IMG/VR virus record: IMGVR_UViG_3300031578_000177
Span: 1 to 35,322 of that record
From: a virus
Strand: one strand, 5' to 3'
Length of the DNA stretch: 35,322 nt
Below are positions 21,997 through 35,322 of the stretch, in pieces (the stretch's first letter is position 1; every line of letters begins with the position of its first letter). Under the pieces are notes generated by a model, which made no database searches, was not told where the DNA came from, and saw only the letters and a program-made list of their open reading frames with translations. The position numbers were made by a program, and so were the translations under genes.

Positions 21997-24249
21997 ATGA
22001 CTTATAGAGATTTTTTAAATAACAAGAAATACAAAATAAATCCTGTGGGGAAGGATATTCAAGTAAATAGTATAAACAAAAAACTGTTTCCTTTCCAGAA
22101 AGATATAGTAAAATGGGCTGTAAAAAAAGGCAGATGTGCTGTTTTCTTGGATACCGGGCTTGGTAAAACTTTTATTCAATTAGAATGGGCGAGAATATTA
22201 GGTAAAAGGGCTTTAGTTATTGCTCCATTATCTGTTGCAAGGCAGACAGTTAGAGAGGGTAAGAAGATTGATATTGAAGTGAAATATATAAGACATGATA
22301 ATGAAGTAATTGACGGGATTAATATAACTAATTATGAAATTGCGGATAATTTTAATCCCGATATTTTTGATTGTATTGTTTTAGACGAGTCGAGTATTTT
22401 AAAATCAATTACCGGGAAGACAAGAAAAATATTGATTGATAAGTTTAAGAATACAAAATATAGATTATGCTGCACCGCTACGCCAGCACCGAACGATTAT
22501 ATAGAACTTGGCAATCATACAGAATTTCTTGGAATATGCACCAGACAGGAAATGCTTTCAATGTTTTTTATTAATGCTAATAAAGAACATACGATAGAAG
22601 TTAACGGTCAAATGTATACAAAGAAAGGCAGTAATAAAGGCGGGCAGGAATGGAGATTGAAACATCATGCTGAAGAAAAGTTTTTTGAATGGATGTCTAA
22701 GTGGTCAATTACAATGACAAAACCGTCTGATTTAGGATATGATGACAGTAGATTTAATTTACCTGAATTAAAAATAACTCCTATCTATATAAAATTAGAC
22801 AATTATACTCCAGAAGGAAAACTATTTTTTGACGGATTACATGGCATACAAGATAGGGCTGATGTTAGAGAACAGACTGCGAACGATAAAATAAGTATAG
22901 TGAAAGATATACTTAAAAAAGATAAGGGTCAATGGATTATATGGTGCGGATTGGACATTGAAAGTAAAATATCAAAGAATAGTATAAAAGATTCAGTTGA
23001 AATTAAAGGTCAAGATGATAGTGAGTATAAAGCAAATATGTTTGAAAATTTTCAGGATAACAAATTTCAGATTCTTATAACTAAACCGAAGATTGGCGGG
23101 TTCGGTATGAATTTCCAGAACGCTAATAATATGATTTTCTACGGATTAAATGATTCATGGGAAACGTATTATCAGGCGGTTAGACGTTGCTGGAGATTCG
23201 GGCAGAAAAAAGAAGTAAATGTATATATTATTATTTCTGAATATGAAAGAGAGATTTACGAGAATATTACAAGAAAAGATTTACAGGCAAAGAGATTAAG
23301 AATAAAAATGATAGAAAAATTAGAGGATTTAGAAAAAGGAGAATTGAAAGGAATGAATATTGAGAAAGAGATTTACAAAAAAAACATTATTAAGGGTAAA
23401 AAGTTTACAGCAATGCTTGGAGATTCATGCGAAAGATTAAAAGAAGTAAAAGATAACAGTATTGATTTATCTGTATATAGTCCTCCATTTATGGATTTAT
23501 TTGTTTATTCTAACAGTAACAGGGATATAGGAAATTGCAAATCGCCAGACGAGTTTTATAAGCATTATGAATTTATCGTAAAAGAATTGTTCCGTGTTAC
23601 AAAAGAGGGTAGGCTAAGTTGTGTTCATACTTCTGATATTCCAGCAATGGCTAACCGGGACGGATATATAGGACTAAAGGATTTTCCGGGCGAAGTATTA
23701 AGATTACATCAAAAATGCGGATGGACTTTTGTCGGCAGATGTTTTATACAAAAAAATCCGCAAGCACAGGCTATAAGAGTTAAAAGTAAATCTCTATTGT
23801 TCGTTCAATTGAATAAAGATTCTTCTTCTTCAAGACCGGCACTTGTTGACCAGATATTGATATTCAAAAAACCCGGTGAGAATAAAATACCGATTACTCC
23901 TGTAAAAAACAAGGAACTGGATAATGAGAAATGGATAAAATGGGCTCATGGTATATGGACGGATATAAGCGAAACTAATACCTTACAATATTATGTTGCA
24001 CGTGCTAAAGATGACGAGAAGCATGTATGTCCGTTACAGTTAGAAACAATAGAACGATGTATTAAACTATATAGTAATCCGGGCGAAACCGTTCTAACTC
24101 CGTTTATGGGTATAGGAAGCGAATCGTTTATGGCATTAAAATTAAACAGAAAAACTATAGGAATAGAACTTAAAGAATCGTATTTCAATGTGGCAATTCA
24201 AAATTTACAACATATAGAATTAGAAAAAGGTCAGAATGAATTATTTTAA
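21997..24249 (+). CDS. SNF2-type helicase fused to DNA methyltransferase
   Basis: A 750-residue two-domain protein. Residues 30-440 form a superfamily 2 (SNF2-like) ATPase: LDTGLGKT (51-58, Walker A), VLDES (128-132), TATP (160-163), GGFGMNFQ (367-374) and QAVRRCWRFGQ (393-403). Residues 470-750 form a beta-class methyltransferase: SPPF (495-498, catalytic) precedes FMGIG (703-707, SAM binding). An SPP motif is usual for N4-cytosine enzymes. No separate restriction nuclease is seen, so self-protection of phage DNA or a replication-linked role is likely. Ribosome site GGAGGG. Confidence 0.85.
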   Translation: MTYRDFLNNKKYKINPVGKDIQVNSINKKLFPFQKDIVKWAVKKGRCAVFLDTGLGKTFIQLEWARILGKRALVIAPLSVARQTVREGKKIDIEVKYIRHDNEVIDGINITNYEIADNFNPDIFDCIVLDESSILKSITGKTRKILIDKFKNTKYRLCCTATPAPNDYIELGNHTEFLGICTRQEMLSMFFINANKEHTIEVNGQMYTKKGSNKGGQEWRLKHHAEEKFFEWMSKWSITMTKPSDLGYDDSRFNLPELKITPIYIKLDNYTPEGKLFFDGLHGIQDRADVREQTANDKISIVKDILKKDKGQWIIWCGLDIESKISKNSIKDSVEIKGQDDSEYKANMFENFQDNKFQILITKPKIGGFGMNFQNANNMIFYGLNDSWETYYQAVRRCWRFGQKKEVNVYIIISEYEREIYENITRKDLQAKRLRIKMIEKLEDLEKGELKGMNIEKEIYKKNIIKGKKFTAMLGDSCERLKEVKDNSIDLSVYSPPFMDLFVYSNSNRDIGNCKSPDEFYKHYEFIVKELFRVTKEGRLSCVHTSDIPAMANRDGYIGLKDFPGEVLRLHQKCGWTFVGRCFIQKNPQAQAIRVKSKSLLFVQLNKDSSSSRPALVDQILIFKKPGENKIPITPVKNKELDNEKWIKWAHGIWTDISETNTLQYYVARAKDDEKHVCPLQLETIERCIKLYSNPGETVLTPFMGIGSESFMALKLNRKTIGIELKESYFNVAIQNLQHIELEKGQNELF

Positions 24250-24252
24250 CCA

Positions 24253-24281
24253 TTGACAAATTAAAAAAAGTTTTATACAAT
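24253..24281 (+). promoter_or_regulatory. Near-consensus promoter (replication region)
   Basis: TTGACA (24253-24258), 17 bases, then TACAAT (24276-24281), starting right after the helicase-methyltransferase stop. Predicted start is 24288-24290, which coincides with the first base of the 5' arm of the structured RNA. Confidence 0.85.
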
Positions 24282-24289
24282 TATTTTAT

Positions 24290-24397
24290 GGATAGGATTG
24301 TAGTAGTAAATCTAAATAAAAAAAATAAGACCGCAAGTGAAATTAGTTACCTTTCGAGGCTACTATAGTTCTATCCAGAACGCTTGCGGTCTTTTTT
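24290..24397 (+). ncRNA. Promoter-linked short RNA with pseudoknot and terminator
   Basis: Stem 1 pairs 24290-24306 with 24360-24376: 17 continuous pairs, three of them G-U. Stem 2 pairs 24327-24339 with 24381-24393: 13 pairs with one G-U, ending in TTTTTT, so an intrinsic terminator. The stems interleave, so they form a pseudoknot or exclude each other. A third hairpin, TAGT/ACTA and CCT/AGG around a TTCG loop (24344-24365), competes with stem 1. The RNA could be a stand-alone small RNA of about 105 nt or an attenuating leader of the initiator gene. No coding potential is evident. Confidence 0.75.
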
Positions 24398-24417
24398 ATT
24401 TTAAAAGGAGATTAAAT

Positions 24418-25128
24418 ATGGCGAATAGATTTACCGATTCAAGAAAATGGGATGACCCATGGTTTAGAAAATTATCACCAAAATATAAAACATTCTGGAT
24501 ATTTATATTAGACAAATGTAATCATGCTGGAATTTGGAAAACAGATTTTGAAAGTGCTGGTTTTCATATTGGAGAGCCTATTGACCCTAACGAATCAAAG
24601 AAACTTTTTAAAAACAGAATACATGAATTTAAGGATAAATGGTTTATTGTTAAGTTTATATTTTTCCAATATGGTGAACTATCTGGAATCAACAGAGTGC
24701 ATAATTCTGTTATTAGCATTTTAAAAAAAGAAGGTCTATATAAGGTCTATATAAGGTCTATACTAGGTTGTAAGGATAAGGATAAGGATAAGGACAAGGA
24801 CAAGGACAAGGACAAGGACAAGGACAAACATAAGGTATGTTTTGATTTCCAATCTATTTTAAAAAAATATCCAAATAGGGATGGTTCTAAAATCGCATTG
24901 AAACATTTTAATGCTACTGTTAAAACGGAACAGGACTGGATTAATATAAATAAAGCCCTTGATAATTATCTTCAATGCGAGAAAGTTAAAAATGGATATG
25001 TAAAAAATGCTTCAACTTGGTTTAATAATTGGAAAGATTGGGTTGACTATATAGAAACAAGCAAGAACACAACAAATTTACAATCGGGTGATTCTAATAA
25101 ATACGACCACTTAAGCAAGGAGGAGTAA
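24418..25128 (+). CDS. Replication initiator-like protein
   Basis: About 236 residues from the ATG at 24418, preceded by AAAAGGAG; an in-frame GTG at 24337 lies inside the terminator stem and is rejected. Residues 1-105 resemble the N-terminal winged-helix domain of phage replisome organisers (MANRFTDSRKW, LSPKYKTFWIFILDKCNHAGIW). A run of nine Lys-Asp pairs links it to a C-terminal domain (residues 140-225) with ALKHFNATVKTEQDWININKA and TWFNNWKDWVDY. It is followed by the DnaC-like gene, the standard pairing. It should bind the origin and recruit the loader. Confidence 0.75.
   Translation: MANRFTDSRKWDDPWFRKLSPKYKTFWIFILDKCNHAGIWKTDFESAGFHIGEPIDPNESKKLFKNRIHEFKDKWFIVKFIFFQYGELSGINRVHNSVISILKKEGLYKVYIRSILGCKDKDKDKDKDKDKDKDKDKHKVCFDFQSILKKYPNRDGSKIALKHFNATVKTEQDWININKALDNYLQCEKVKNGYVKNASTWFNNWKDWVDYIETSKNTTNLQSGDSNKYDHLSKEE
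24731..24763 (+). repeat. Three 11-bp iteron-like direct repeats
   Basis: AAGGTCTATAT occurs at 24731-24741 and 24742-24752, and AAGGTCTATAC at 24753-24763. The 11-bp period is close to one DNA turn and is not a multiple of three, so the copies are read in three different frames. That argues for selection on DNA rather than on protein. They lie in the middle of the initiator gene, as the lambda origin does in gene O, so an origin is plausible. Confidence 0.65.
24772..24825 (+). repeat. Nine tandem 6-bp units (Lys-Asp linker)
   Basis: Three AAGGAT units and six AAGGAC units in tandem encode nine Lys-Asp pairs. They share the AAGG core of the 11-bp repeats just upstream and are followed by an AT-rich stretch (24840-24872). 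The number of units could change by slippage. Confidence 0.9.
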
Positions 25129-25824
25129 ATGGATATAATACCGGAAAAATTAAAACGTAACGAATTAGAGCGGAGCATGGAAAAACTAAAAGTGGCATTT
25201 GATAGTATAGTCTATGCCAGATGTTCAAAGTGTCAAGAAGAATGGCAGGATAGTAGTCTAATTAACGGTATCTGCGAAGAATGTATTGAAAAAGAAAGAT
25301 ACAAAAAAGGAAAGAGATTTGATAATTTTAAAGTTACGTCAAGTAACAAGAAAGCATATACGATGGCAGACGTATTTCCAAATAATGACAGAGGGTTATA
25401 TCTCTGGGGTGGTACCGGGACAGGAAAAAGTCATCTCGCTCAGGCAGTATATAACGTTTTAAAAAAGAAAACCACGGATATACTATATTGCAATACCCCG
25501 GAACTGTTATGTGAGATTCGTAGTAGTTTTAATAAATTGAGTTCACACACAGAAAAAGACCTTGTTGATTTTTATAGCGAACAGGACTATCTTATTTTGG
25601 ACGATTTTGGAGCGGAGAAAGTAAGCGATTATACAATTCAAACATTATATCTCATAATCGACAAAATGCTGAGATACGGCAATAACAAAATATTAATAAC
25701 AAGTAACCTATCACTTAAAGTTATTAGCAATAAAATGTCCGATAGAATAGCAAGTAGAATATCTGAAATGTGCGATATAGTTTATACCGGGAAAAACGAT
25801 TGGCGGCTGAAACTTACAAAATGA
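25129..25824 (+). CDS. DnaC-like helicase loader ATPase
   Basis: A 231-residue AAA+ protein. An N-terminal zinc ribbon uses Cys32, Cys35, Cys49 and Cys52. Walker A is GGTGTGKS (94-101), Walker B LILDDFG (155-161), sensor 1 ITSN (190-193), and SDRIASRI (204-211) supplies the arginine finger region. This is the DnaC / IstB type that loads the host replicative helicase onto the origin. It begins right at the initiator stop. The ribosome site AAGGAGGAG is strong. No phage replicative helicase or polymerase is present, so the host replisome is probably used. Confidence 0.9.
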   Translation: MDIIPEKLKRNELERSMEKLKVAFDSIVYARCSKCQEEWQDSSLINGICEECIEKERYKKGKRFDNFKVTSSNKKAYTMADVFPNNDRGLYLWGGTGTGKSHLAQAVYNVLKKKTTDILYCNTPELLCEIRSSFNKLSSHTEKDLVDFYSEQDYLILDDFGAEKVSDYTIQTLYLIIDKMLRYGNNKILITSNLSLKVISNKMSDRIASRISEMCDIVYTGKNDWRLKLTK

Positions 25825-29823: not shown

Positions 29824-29862
29824 ATGGAAATAGAAAAGTTAAGGAGGAAGAATAATGTGTGA
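29824..29862 (+). CDS. Possible 12-codon leader frame
   Basis: ATG after AGGAGG, reading MEIEKLRRKNNV and stopping inside the solenoid gene start. It carries the AAGGAGGAAG ribosome site for that gene, so it may act by translational coupling. It may equally be chance. Confidence 0.25.
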   Translation: MEIEKLRRKNNV

Positions 29863-31237
29863 GTTTATAAGTTTTTTTCATCTGCCAGATACAGGGGAAA
29901 TAAAGGTGTGGGATTTGGAATCTCATGGCAACACCGAGAAAAAGTTAGGACTTGATGTGAAAAAATGGCGGGAAGGACACTATACGCCCAAAGGTAGGAT
30001 TGAATGCAGAGTATTAGAGGAAGACGGAATATCCAAAGAGACGTGTAATAAACTTCTAAAAGAGAAATATCCTACGTTTAACGAATTCCTTAAGTTTTGT
30101 ATGAAAGAAATCCCGTCAGTATATCCAGGGTCTCTCGACCTAAGAGGATGTGATTTAAAAGGAGTTACTCTACCGAAGGAAGTTGGCGGGTCTCTCTACC
30201 TAAGCGGATGCGATTTAAAAGGAGTTACTCTACCGAAGGAAGTTGGCGGGTCTCTCGACCTAAGAGGATGCGATTTAAAAGGAGTTACTATTCTAGATAA
30301 AGTTGGCGGGTATCTCGAACTAAGCGGATGCGATTTAAAAGGAGTTACTATTCCAGATAAAGTTGGCGGGTCTCTCGACCTAAGCGGATGTGATTTAAAA
30401 GGAGTTACTCTACCGAAGGAAGTTGGCGGGGGTCTCCACCTAAGCGGATGCGATTTAAAAGGAGTTACTATTCCAGATAAAGTTGTCGGGTATCTCGACC
30501 TAAGCGGATGCGATTTAAAAGGAGTTACTATTCCAGATAAAGTTGGCGGGTATCTCGACCTAAGCGGATGCGATTTAAAAGGAGTTACTCTACCGAAGGA
30601 AGTTGGTTGGTCTCTCTACCTAAGCGGATGTGATTTAAAAGGAATTACTCTACCGAAGAAAGTTGGCGGGGGTCTCCACCTAAGCGGATGCGATTTAAAA
30701 GGAGTTACTATTCCAGATAAAGTTGGCGGGTCTCTCGACCTAAGCGGATGTGATTTAAAAGGAGTTACTATTCCAGATAAAGTTGGCGGGTCTCTCTACC
30801 TAAGCGGATGCGATTTAAAGGGGGTTACTCTACCGAAGGAAGTTGGCGGGTCTCTCGACCTAAGCGGATGCGATTTAAAAGGAGTTACTATTCCAGATAA
30901 AGTTGGCGGGTCTCTCTACCTAAGAGGATGCGATTTAAAAGGAGTTACTATTCCAGATAAAGTTGGCGGGTCTCTCTACCTAAGCGGATGCGATTTAAAA
31001 GGAATTACTCTACCGAAGAAAGTTGGCGGGGGTCTCCACCTAAGCGGATGCGATTTAAAGGGGGTTACTCTACCGAAGGAAGTTGGCGGGTCTCTCGACC
31101 TAAGCGGATGCGATTTAAAGGGGGTTACTCTACCGAAGGAAGTTGGCGGGTCTCTCTACCTAAGCGGATGCGATTTAAAAGGGGTTACATTACCAAAAGT
31201 AAAAGGAGTGATAAATGAATATAAAAAGATTATGTAA
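29855..31237 (+). CDS. Beta-solenoid protein with eighteen 20-residue repeats
   Basis: A 460-residue protein with ribosome site AAGGAGGAAG. Residues 1-92 form a distinct N-terminal domain (MCEFISFFHLPDTGEIKVWD, GHYTPKGRIECRVLEEDG) that also occurs before other repeat tails in phages. Residues 92-449 are 18 copies of a 20-residue unit of the form VGGSLxLSGCDLKGVTxPxx, a beta-solenoid or leucine-rich-like turn with one Cys per turn. Variation is confined to the strand (SLDL, SLYL, GLHL, YLDL) and the end (TLPKE, TIPDK, TLPKK). The last 11 residues are read from the direct repeat. A binding or mimic role is likely; the partner is unknown. Confidence 0.75.
   Translation: MCEFISFFHLPDTGEIKVWDLESHGNTEKKLGLDVKKWREGHYTPKGRIECRVLEEDGISKETCNKLLKEKYPTFNEFLKFCMKEIPSVYPGSLDLRGCDLKGVTLPKEVGGSLYLSGCDLKGVTLPKEVGGSLDLRGCDLKGVTILDKVGGYLELSGCDLKGVTIPDKVGGSLDLSGCDLKGVTLPKEVGGGLHLSGCDLKGVTIPDKVVGYLDLSGCDLKGVTIPDKVGGYLDLSGCDLKGVTLPKEVGWSLYLSGCDLKGITLPKKVGGGLHLSGCDLKGVTIPDKVGGSLDLSGCDLKGVTIPDKVGGSLYLSGCDLKGVTLPKEVGGSLDLSGCDLKGVTIPDKVGGSLYLRGCDLKGVTIPDKVGGSLYLSGCDLKGITLPKKVGGGLHLSGCDLKGVTLPKEVGGSLDLSGCDLKGVTLPKEVGGSLYLSGCDLKGVTLPKVKGVINEYKKIM
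30121..31200 (+). repeat. Eighteen tandem 60-bp repeats
   Basis: Eighteen units of exactly 60 bp with very few differences between them. Two unit endings alternate irregularly: CTACCGAAGGA and TTCCAGATAA. The rarer pair GGAATTACTCTACCGAAGAA then GGGGGTCTCCACC appears at both 30640-30680 and 31000-31040, showing block duplication or gene conversion. Because 60 is a multiple of three, several other frames are open but carry no signals. Confidence 0.95.
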
Positions 31238-33621: not shown

Positions 33622-35322
33622 GTATATTTGATACAGTATTTAAAAAGCAGATTGATAAAGCGGTTCAAACAATAATTCAAAAGAGTACTTATTTTACTTC
33701 AGCAGGTTCTACTCAATACAAACAATCAAAATATATTGATGCGAAAGAAAACTCAAAGATATATTCCGATGCATACAAAGACGAACTCTATATATACGGA
33801 TGTGTTTATCTTATATCAAACACTATCGCCCATCTACCATTATTGATTTATAAAGACGATACGAAACAGGATATAATAGAAAATCATCCGTTATATGATT
33901 TACTAAAAAACCCTAATTTCAAAGATTCGCAATATGATTTAATGGAATCAGTATCAGCGAACCTTGAACTCACCGGGAATACTTATATATTAAAAGATGA
34001 TATCGCATTAAACAAACCTCGTTCTATATTTTCTTTAATCTCAAGCAATATGCGGATAGAACGGAATATTGAGATGAAATATAAAACAAGTATTAGTGAT
34101 ATGATAAAATATTACGAATACGGTCAGGTAAAATATTCGCCTGATATTATTATACACGAGAGGAAATATAATCCTACCGACGATATACTTGGAATGTCGC
34201 CTATACAAGCGGCGGCATTGACTTTAGATATGACAATAGAAGCGAAACGACAGAACTATAATATATTCAAGCAAGGAATGAGCAGTGATGGAGTAATAAG
34301 CACAGATCAGCCGTTTAGTGAAATTACATATAAACGATTGAAACAAGATATTGGTAGCAGATATTCAGGACAGCAGAACGCCCATGCTCCAATGGTATTA
34401 TTTAACGGATTAAAATATACTCCAATAGGAATCAATCCAAAAGATATGGATTTCATTAACGGCTTAAAAATGAACCGTGAAGAACTATGCGGATTCCTGT
34501 ATCAAGTTCCGCTTATACTTCTTGGAGTTTTAGAAAATTCTTCATATAACAATATCAAAGAAGCAATGCGTATATTTTATAATATCAGCATATTACCACG
34601 ACTAATAAAGAACAGAGAAATATATCAGAAGTTGCTTGATTTATGGAATCCTGAATACTATATTGATTTTGATTTGTCTGAAGTGGGAGCATTAAAAGAA
34701 GATTTAAAAGAAAAGATAGAACAGGCAGAACGTATGTGGAAAATGGGAGTCCCATATAATAAAATAGCAGAGGCATTGGATTTGCCTGTTAGAGATATTC
34801 CGGGCGGCAATACAGGATATTTACCATTTAATCTTGCACCTGCTGGAAGTCCTGCTCCAGAAAAAACTCCTGCGAAACCGCCTGAAAAACAAGTTAATAA
34901 AACGCATAAAATTAAATGGACTCCTGAATTGAAAAAACAGAAAGCGAAACAATTTGATTCTTCTACTCGTAAGATAGAAACGAAATATCGTAGTCAATTA
35001 GTTCCATATTTCAAAGCACAAGAGCAGGAAGTATTAAACAATCTTGACAAGTTTAAGTCTATTACATATAAGAAACTCGCAGATAATACGTTCATGGTTT
35101 TCGGCGACATAGACGGTAAAGCAAAACCTATACGCATTGAATCGGTATTATTTGACGAGAATGAGCAAGTAAAGAAATTAACAAAAGTAAATCTGCCGAT
35201 ACATACAGAAGCATTAAAAGAGCAAGGACAGGCGGAAATGGATTTACTTGGTATAGAGCAGACATTTAATGTTTCTAATCCAGAAGTTCAAAGATACTTG
35301 AAAGCAAACGCTTTATCTAAAG
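33618..35322 (+). CDS. Portal protein, N-terminal part of portal-MuF fusion
   Basis: The first 568 codons of a gene that continues at position 1 after the overlap. Residues 1-400 are an HK97-type portal: KYIDAKENSKIYSD, YIYGCVYLISNTIAHLPLL, NHPLYDLLKNPN, SANLELTGNTYIL, the hallmark NPTDDILGMSPIQAA, and FLYQVPLILLGVLENSSYNN. A Pro/Ala linker (APAGSPAPEKTPAKPPEK, about 410-430) leads to a helical region that joins the MuF-like domain. It forms the dodecameric DNA entry ring; the fused MuF part would add about 270 residues, facing the head interior in known relatives. Confidence 0.9.
   Translation, partial: MSIFDTVFKKQIDKAVQTIIQKSTYFTSAGSTQYKQSKYIDAKENSKIYSDAYKDELYIYGCVYLISNTIAHLPLLIYKDDTKQDIIENHPLYDLLKNPNFKDSQYDLMESVSANLELTGNTYILKDDIALNKPRSIFSLISSNMRIERNIEMKYKTSISDMIKYYEYGQVKYSPDIIIHERKYNPTDDILGMSPIQAAALTLDMTIEAKRQNYNIFKQGMSSDGVISTDQPFSEITYKRLKQDIGSRYSGQQNAHAPMVLFNGLKYTPIGINPKDMDFINGLKMNREELCGFLYQVPLILLGVLENSSYNNIKEAMRIFYNISILPRLIKNREIYQKLLDLWNPEYYIDFDLSEVGALKEDLKEKIEQAERMWKMGVPYNKIAEALDLPVRDIPGGNTGYLPFNLAPAGSPAPEKTPAKPPEKQVNKTHKIKWTPELKKQKAKQFDSSTRKIETKYRSQLVPYFKAQEQEVLNNLDKFKSITYKKLADNTFMVFGDIDGKAKPIRIESVLFDENEQVKKLTKVNLPIHTEALKEQGQAEMDLLGIEQTFNVSNPEVQRYLKANALSK
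35199..35322. repeat. Terminal overlap, right copy
   Basis: Right-hand copy of the 124-base overlap described at 1-124. Removing one copy gives a circle of about 35,198 bp. A biological direct terminal repeat is less likely, because it would fall in the middle of the portal-MuF reading frame and the two copies would be identical. Confidence 0.95.

Follow-up and report, generated by a model that had tools for sequence, protein, structure and literature searches.

The window analysed here is the complete 35,322-base sequence of a viral record, and the element of interest occupies positions 24253 to 24418. A helicase-methyltransferase gene ending at 24249 is directly followed by a promoter, from which a short leader containing an intrinsic terminator leads into a replication initiator gene and the next gene of the operon, as listed below.

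24253 to 24281, plus strand: promoter, with -35 hexamer TTGACA (24253-24258) and -10 hexamer TACAAT (24276-24281) separated by a 17-nt spacer, 11 of 12 consensus positions matched
24288, plus strand: predicted transcription start, an A 7 nt past the -10 hexamer (spacing rule)
24288 to 24368, plus strand: possible leaderless leader ORF of 26 codons, with its ATG lying where stem 1 begins, translated as MDRIVVVNLNKKNKTASEISYLSRLL and followed by a stop
24289 to 24307, plus strand: 5' arm of stem 1 (S1), 19 bp with 24359-24377, four of them G.U
24308 to 24326, plus strand: A-rich linker L1, 19 nt
24327 to 24339, plus strand: 5' arm of stem 2 (S2, the terminator), 13 bp with 24381-24393, one of them G.U
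24350 to 24359, plus strand: TTCG-capped 3-bp hairpin (CCT-TTCG-AGG) with a possible TAGT/ACTA extension, present in the nested minimum free energy structure and competing with S1
24359 to 24377, plus strand: 3' arm of S1, within the terminator loop
24381 to 24393, plus strand: 3' arm of S2, followed by a T run
24392 to 24402, plus strand: U-rich termination tract TTTTTTATTTT, sharing the final two bases of S2
24403 to 24410, plus strand: Shine-Dalgarno sequence AAAAGGAG of the initiator gene
24418 to 25128, plus strand: replication initiator gene (236 aa, phrog_270/phrog_9327), ATG at 24418
25129 to 25824, plus strand: gene for a DnaC-like helicase loader, next in the operon

The first-pass annotation of this region, which described a near-consensus promoter and two interleaved stems, was confirmed as a whole and its coordinates hold, including those of the 13-bp terminator stem; the TTCG-capped competitor is present as well. 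Two details were revised. The uninterrupted stem of 17 bp between 24290-24306 and 24360-24376 is present (with three G.U pairs) and is lengthened by one further pair on either side, reaching 19 bp, and transcription, which had been placed at the first base of that stem (24290), is predicted from the -10 spacing to begin at A24288, one base 5' of the 19-bp stem. The promoter is a near-consensus one of the sigma-70 type. The intrinsic terminator sits between this promoter and the initiator ATG, 25 nt before the latter, leaving no space for a second promoter 3' of it, and the upstream promoter is the only one nearby. A record-wide search found no integrase, and a role in lysogenic immunity is therefore unsupported.

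Several other observations were made at this locus. A near-perfect tandem repeat of GGATAA/GGACAA at 24772-24830 encodes a KDKDKD... linker in the initiator, and KD runs of a similar kind occur in many relatives of the protein. The start of L1 (GTAAATCTA, 24306-24314) is a perfect nine-base complement of the first codons of the initiator gene (TAGATTTAC, 24426-24434), which could have a role on the read-through mRNA or could be due to chance. A 460-aa protein with leucine-rich/pentapeptide repeats is encoded at 29855-31237.

S1 and S2 interleave in a 1:3/2:4 topology and share no base, and can therefore form together only as a pseudoknot, which nested folding programs are unable to display. 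With loops L1, L2 and L3 of 19, 19 and 3 nt, respectively, simultaneous formation of both stems is not forbidden. Helix energies within the full RNA were about -24 kcal/mol for S1 and about -19 kcal/mol for S2, and the nested fold of the element was more stable than that of shuffled sequences (z = -3.15). In a cotranscriptional folding series under the nested model, S1 was the best structure for RNAs ending at 24367-24388 and S2 for those ending at 24391 or beyond.

The interleaved-stem score of 71 was the best of the window, the next distinct structures scoring 43 on the plus strand and 45 on the minus strand, where the best value rises to 53 under a looser scan. Nine dinucleotide-shuffled copies of the approximately 3.5 Mb of phage loci, representing about 31 Mb, gave a maximum score of 55 and none of the nine reached 57, whereas the top scores of the real loci were 76, 71 (the window), 59, 59 and 57. 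Scores of at least 50 were obtained 17 times in the real loci and about once per shuffled replicate. The same scan program returned no promoter-linked match in lambda.

Close homologues of the initiator mostly lack the element. The closest relatives (L003, L004, L006 and the upstream region of L005) have none before the initiator and so supply no direct homologue for covariation. A nucleotide search of cultured phages gave no match. In L003, a close relative without the element, TACAAT lies immediately 5' of the initiator ATG (upstream of 2828), a position that suggests a leaderless initiator mRNA. Of 104 independent upstream regions, 13 contain a terminator at a distance of no more than 70 nt from the initiator ATG. 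L002, L012, L028, L029, L057, L062, L105, L175 and L387/L392 carry a terminator at the same place with a loop complementary to the leader's 5' portion, in sequences unrelated among one another. For seven of the 13 terminators preceding the initiator family, the duplex between loop and upstream sequence was stronger than in shuffled sequences (p <= 0.035), as against 14 of 153 comparison terminators elsewhere in the same loci, or 6 of 145 once eight controls were removed that had been recognised by eye as the elements themselves, copied in sense or antisense orientation. Short tRNA-like elements of the form GGGGTAG ... GTGAGTTCAAGTCTCAC ... CTACTCC were also noted about 100 nt 5' of the initiators of L082 and L101 (also in L064, L070, L072 and L074); those before the initiators of L082, L101 and L064 were left uncounted as members of the class described below because ARAGORN calls no tRNA in them.

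A scan of all loci (approximately 3.4 Mb of phage sequence) for an S1 scoring at least 24 and interleaved with a terminator yielded 35 unique matches, the upper half of which nearly all display a promoter, an S1 near +1, a terminator and a gene. About 16 independent leaders of this design were distinguished: it occurs in L002, L005, L007, L029, L060, L062, L222, L392/L387, L422, L435, L474, L488, L492, L496 and L537 as well as in the cultured Flavobacterium phage 11b (at about 33643-33718). The genes that follow are mostly non-homologous replication genes, encoding initiators (L029, L392, L435 and the window), a helicase-methyltransferase, helicases (L496 and a second element in L062), a primase-polymerase (L474) and a DnaA/DnaD-like organizer (L488); a DUF6291 protein (L537) and an HNH gene (L060) are also found at this position. 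Both stems are kept across the class despite entirely different sequences, and no conserved ligand-binding or unpaired core was found in it. L1 measures 13-36 nt in all 16 members, as against 34% of shuffled matches, and L2 and L3 together span at least 20 nt. The recurrence of the design, with different sequences, before the replication genes of unrelated phages points to an undescribed switch timing the start of phage DNA copying. Since only the architecture is conserved and the sequence is free to diverge, searches based on families miss the class.

Open reading frames are a further feature of these leaders. The 5' arm of S1 ends within a few nucleotides of an ATG in eight of 18 class members (p 0.01-0.04), all eight reading ATGAA, and in four elements (the window, L410, L422 and L552) an ATG lies at the 5' end of S1. 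With leader-ORF starts picked by the author for their closeness to S1, the stop codon falls between -5 and +8 nt of the start of the next gene in seven of 14 leaders (1.0 expected, P = 2.6e-6), which points to translation coupled across the terminator. The ORF at 24288-24368, which is an addition to the first-pass annotation, is a possible member of this set by promoter spacing and by analogy to the class: its leaderless start requires +1 to be exactly at 24288, it stops 49 nt 5' of the initiator gene and so has no start-stop overlap, unlike other members, and it is without codon-level support because the window element has no close homologue. Neither its translation nor the other leader ORFs of the class contain a regulatory run of amino-acid codons. 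No obvious leader ORF is present in several Bacteroidota members (phage 11b, L222, the second L062 element, L028 and L105); a leader peptide was therefore rejected as the universal input, and translation cannot be the sole input of the class.

A related group of leaders in Bacteroidota phages, here termed the kissing group, consists of a TATATTYG promoter, a 5' hairpin, a TTTAGTGGTTAAA linker and a terminator. In this group, enlarged by searching with a 16-base pattern, 60 of 61 distinct elements contain a perfect 7-8 nt complement between the loop of the first hairpin and that of the terminator. Over 40 distinct rows, 99.6% of the cells of the kissing helix are paired, with changes on both sides in five of seven pairs; none of 500 shuffles reached the covariation score, and slid controls paired at 33-43%. 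These data provide strong evidence for the loop pairing in the kissing group, and for that group rather than for the window. The first-pass annotation had looked to related phages for compensatory changes: they are strong for this equivalent loop pairing, and the window element itself is without a close homologue. The genes after the kissing-group leader vary, encoding DUF1376-like and Lin1244-like proteins, an initiator, and HNH and GIY-YIG endonucleases, and the DNA pattern of the group had no exact match in 84,980 bacterial genomes. The group aligned over the full model to Chlorobi-RRM (RF01697) with 29.8 bits (E 9.5e-5), below the cut-off of 45 bits; the aligned part, as in L300:2963-3027 and some 60 related elements in L234-L381, is the linker (UUUAGUGGUUAAA) plus the terminator. 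The kissing-group hairpin may, by this resemblance, be a host hairpin bound by an RRM protein and taken over by phages. In the same elements (L300:2963-2985) the linker is readable as a six-codon ORF (ATG TGT TTA GTG GTT AAA TAA), in which TGA replaces the stop TAA in some members and whose degree of conservation is biased by the pattern used in the search.

The first-pass annotation had offered two readings, a pseudoknotted small RNA and a switch that decides on read-through into the initiator. A switch is favoured, since the terminator separates the only nearby promoter from the initiator ATG and since the design recurs before non-homologous replication genes. We interpret the element, with a probability of about one half, as the 5' leader of a replication operon acting as a transcription attenuator of interleaved topology, in which translation would lead to read-through. 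Transcription would begin at approximately 24288. If the 5' end were unoccupied, S1 would zip once 24360-24377 had emerged from the polymerase, shutting the entry site of the short leader ORF. After some 10 further nucleotides the terminator S2 would thread through S1 to complete the pseudoknot, and the transcript would stop short of the initiator gene at a length of roughly 110 nt. A ribosome loaded before closure of S1 and trailing the polymerase would separate S1 and shield the 5' arm of S2, allowing read-through into the initiator gene. Under such ribosome gating, expression of the replication genes would depend on prompt translation, and the element may govern phage replication, as had been proposed. 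In E. coli, ribosomes engaged in translation repress a Rho-independent terminator close by, but terminators are also efficient when they lie within 100 bp of the start of a coding region (PMC4824070), so that a ribosome may rarely come in time. More tentatively, and with the balance somewhat against it, the same reading may be extended to a widespread and undescribed class of phage leaders. Their initial 10-22 nt or so, frequently the place where ribosomes would enter a tiny ORF, would pair with the terminator loop and couple entry into replication to host translation.

The main rival to a translation-gated attenuator assigns S1 the opposite role. As an antiterminator, its rigid 19-bp helix would trap the 5' arm of S2 and delay S2, making read-through the default, and an occupant of the first 20 nt (a ribosome, a protein or another RNA) would block S1 and let the terminator form. 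S1 is complete about 10 nt ahead of S2 in the folding series, merely 3 nt separate it from the 3' arm of S2 in the window, which would constrain S2, and no leader ORF is required, as in phage 11b. However, the L1 and L2+L3 lengths found throughout the class would permit both stems together, and leader ORFs that span the terminator and reach the start codon of the following gene fit read-through favoured by translation; we consider the antiterminator unlikely, at roughly the weight of a serious minority view. A product acting in trans, namely the terminated pseudoknotted small RNA of about 110 nt, with the initiator supplied by leaky read-through, would agree with the strong promoter, with both ends being locked in helices and with a nested fold stabler than shuffled sequences. 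It is nevertheless improbable, as arms and loops without sequence shared between phages offer no common target and the element is tied to the starts of replication genes, which leader ORFs overlap. Slightly more doubtful still is control of the pseudoknot by a protein or metabolite, as in a riboswitch or an autogenous leader, with the phage initiator or a host protein that binds RNA as a conceivable ligand. A pseudoknot with a terminator is the layout of the fluoride and ZTP riboswitches, and the kissing group shows a weak, below-threshold match to the cis-regulator Chlorobi-RRM, but no unpaired core is conserved class-wide and no Rfam riboswitch matches the window. That the inverted repeats act as DNA, as an origin or initiator binding site next to the initiator gene with RNA folding incidental, is very improbable given the G.U pairs in the stems, arms placed downstream of promoters near +1, the U tract at the terminator, and sequences not common to relatives having the same initiator. 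A chance pairing of a promoter with the ordinary terminator of the upstream gene, in AT-rich sequence where hairpins are common and promoter-like matches many, was already disfavoured and is hardly credible beside a score unreached in shuffled sequence and a design that recurs independently at this position.

The absence of a named family, as noted in the first-pass annotation, was borne out: Rfam 15 at gathering threshold gave no match in the window or in 16 related loci, and matches to the window at relaxed thresholds (E 0.09 or worse) were at chance level. No phage attenuator of interleaved topology, and no attenuator class at phage replication operons, was found in the open literature, which is weak evidence of absence. 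Homology-based building of RNA families would miss the class, which the interleaved-stem scan detects, and the class offers a testable explanation for the timing of replication in lytic phages, with a copy in the cultured Flavobacterium phage 11b.

Among known systems, a type III toxin-antitoxin RNA (ToxI) was rejected, there being no direct repeats in 24200-24450 and the neighbouring gene being a replication initiator, as was an antisense RNA like lambda oop, promoter and terminator lying on the initiator's own strand. HK022 put is likewise a structured RNA from the start of an early-operon promoter that would affect termination, but put suppresses distant terminators through contact with RNA polymerase, whereas the window structure contains the terminator itself. 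The c4 (RF01695)/P4 CI antisense RNA shares a phage leader, complementary segments and termination before a replication/antirepressor operon; the window differs in holding both complementary segments in one short leader, and has no Rfam c4 match and no integrase. Chlorobi-RRM resembles the kissing group in its UGG-triloop hairpin followed by a terminator. The phage group adds a 5' hairpin kissing the terminator loop and precedes replication genes or endonucleases, and the window has neither a UGG-triloop hairpin nor a match to the model. The fluoride (crcB) and ZTP (pfl) riboswitches are likewise 5' leaders that combine a pseudoknot with a neighbouring intrinsic terminator; the phage class, however, lacks an aptamer core or Rfam match, and its helix sequences differ wholly between phages. 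Attenuation is a textbook mode of regulating biosynthesis operons in bacteria, and the leader-peptide attenuators (trp, thr, his, pyrBI, mgtCBR) are alike in being operon 5' leaders with an intrinsic terminator before the first gene and, as in many class members, a short leader ORF with ribosome position as the likely input. The phage class is without a regulatory codon run and some members lack the ORF. Competing helices share a strand in leader-peptide attenuators (1:2, 2:3, 3:4), whereas S1 and S2 of the window do not (1:3, 2:4), and this interleaved topology would constitute a new way of building an attenuator.
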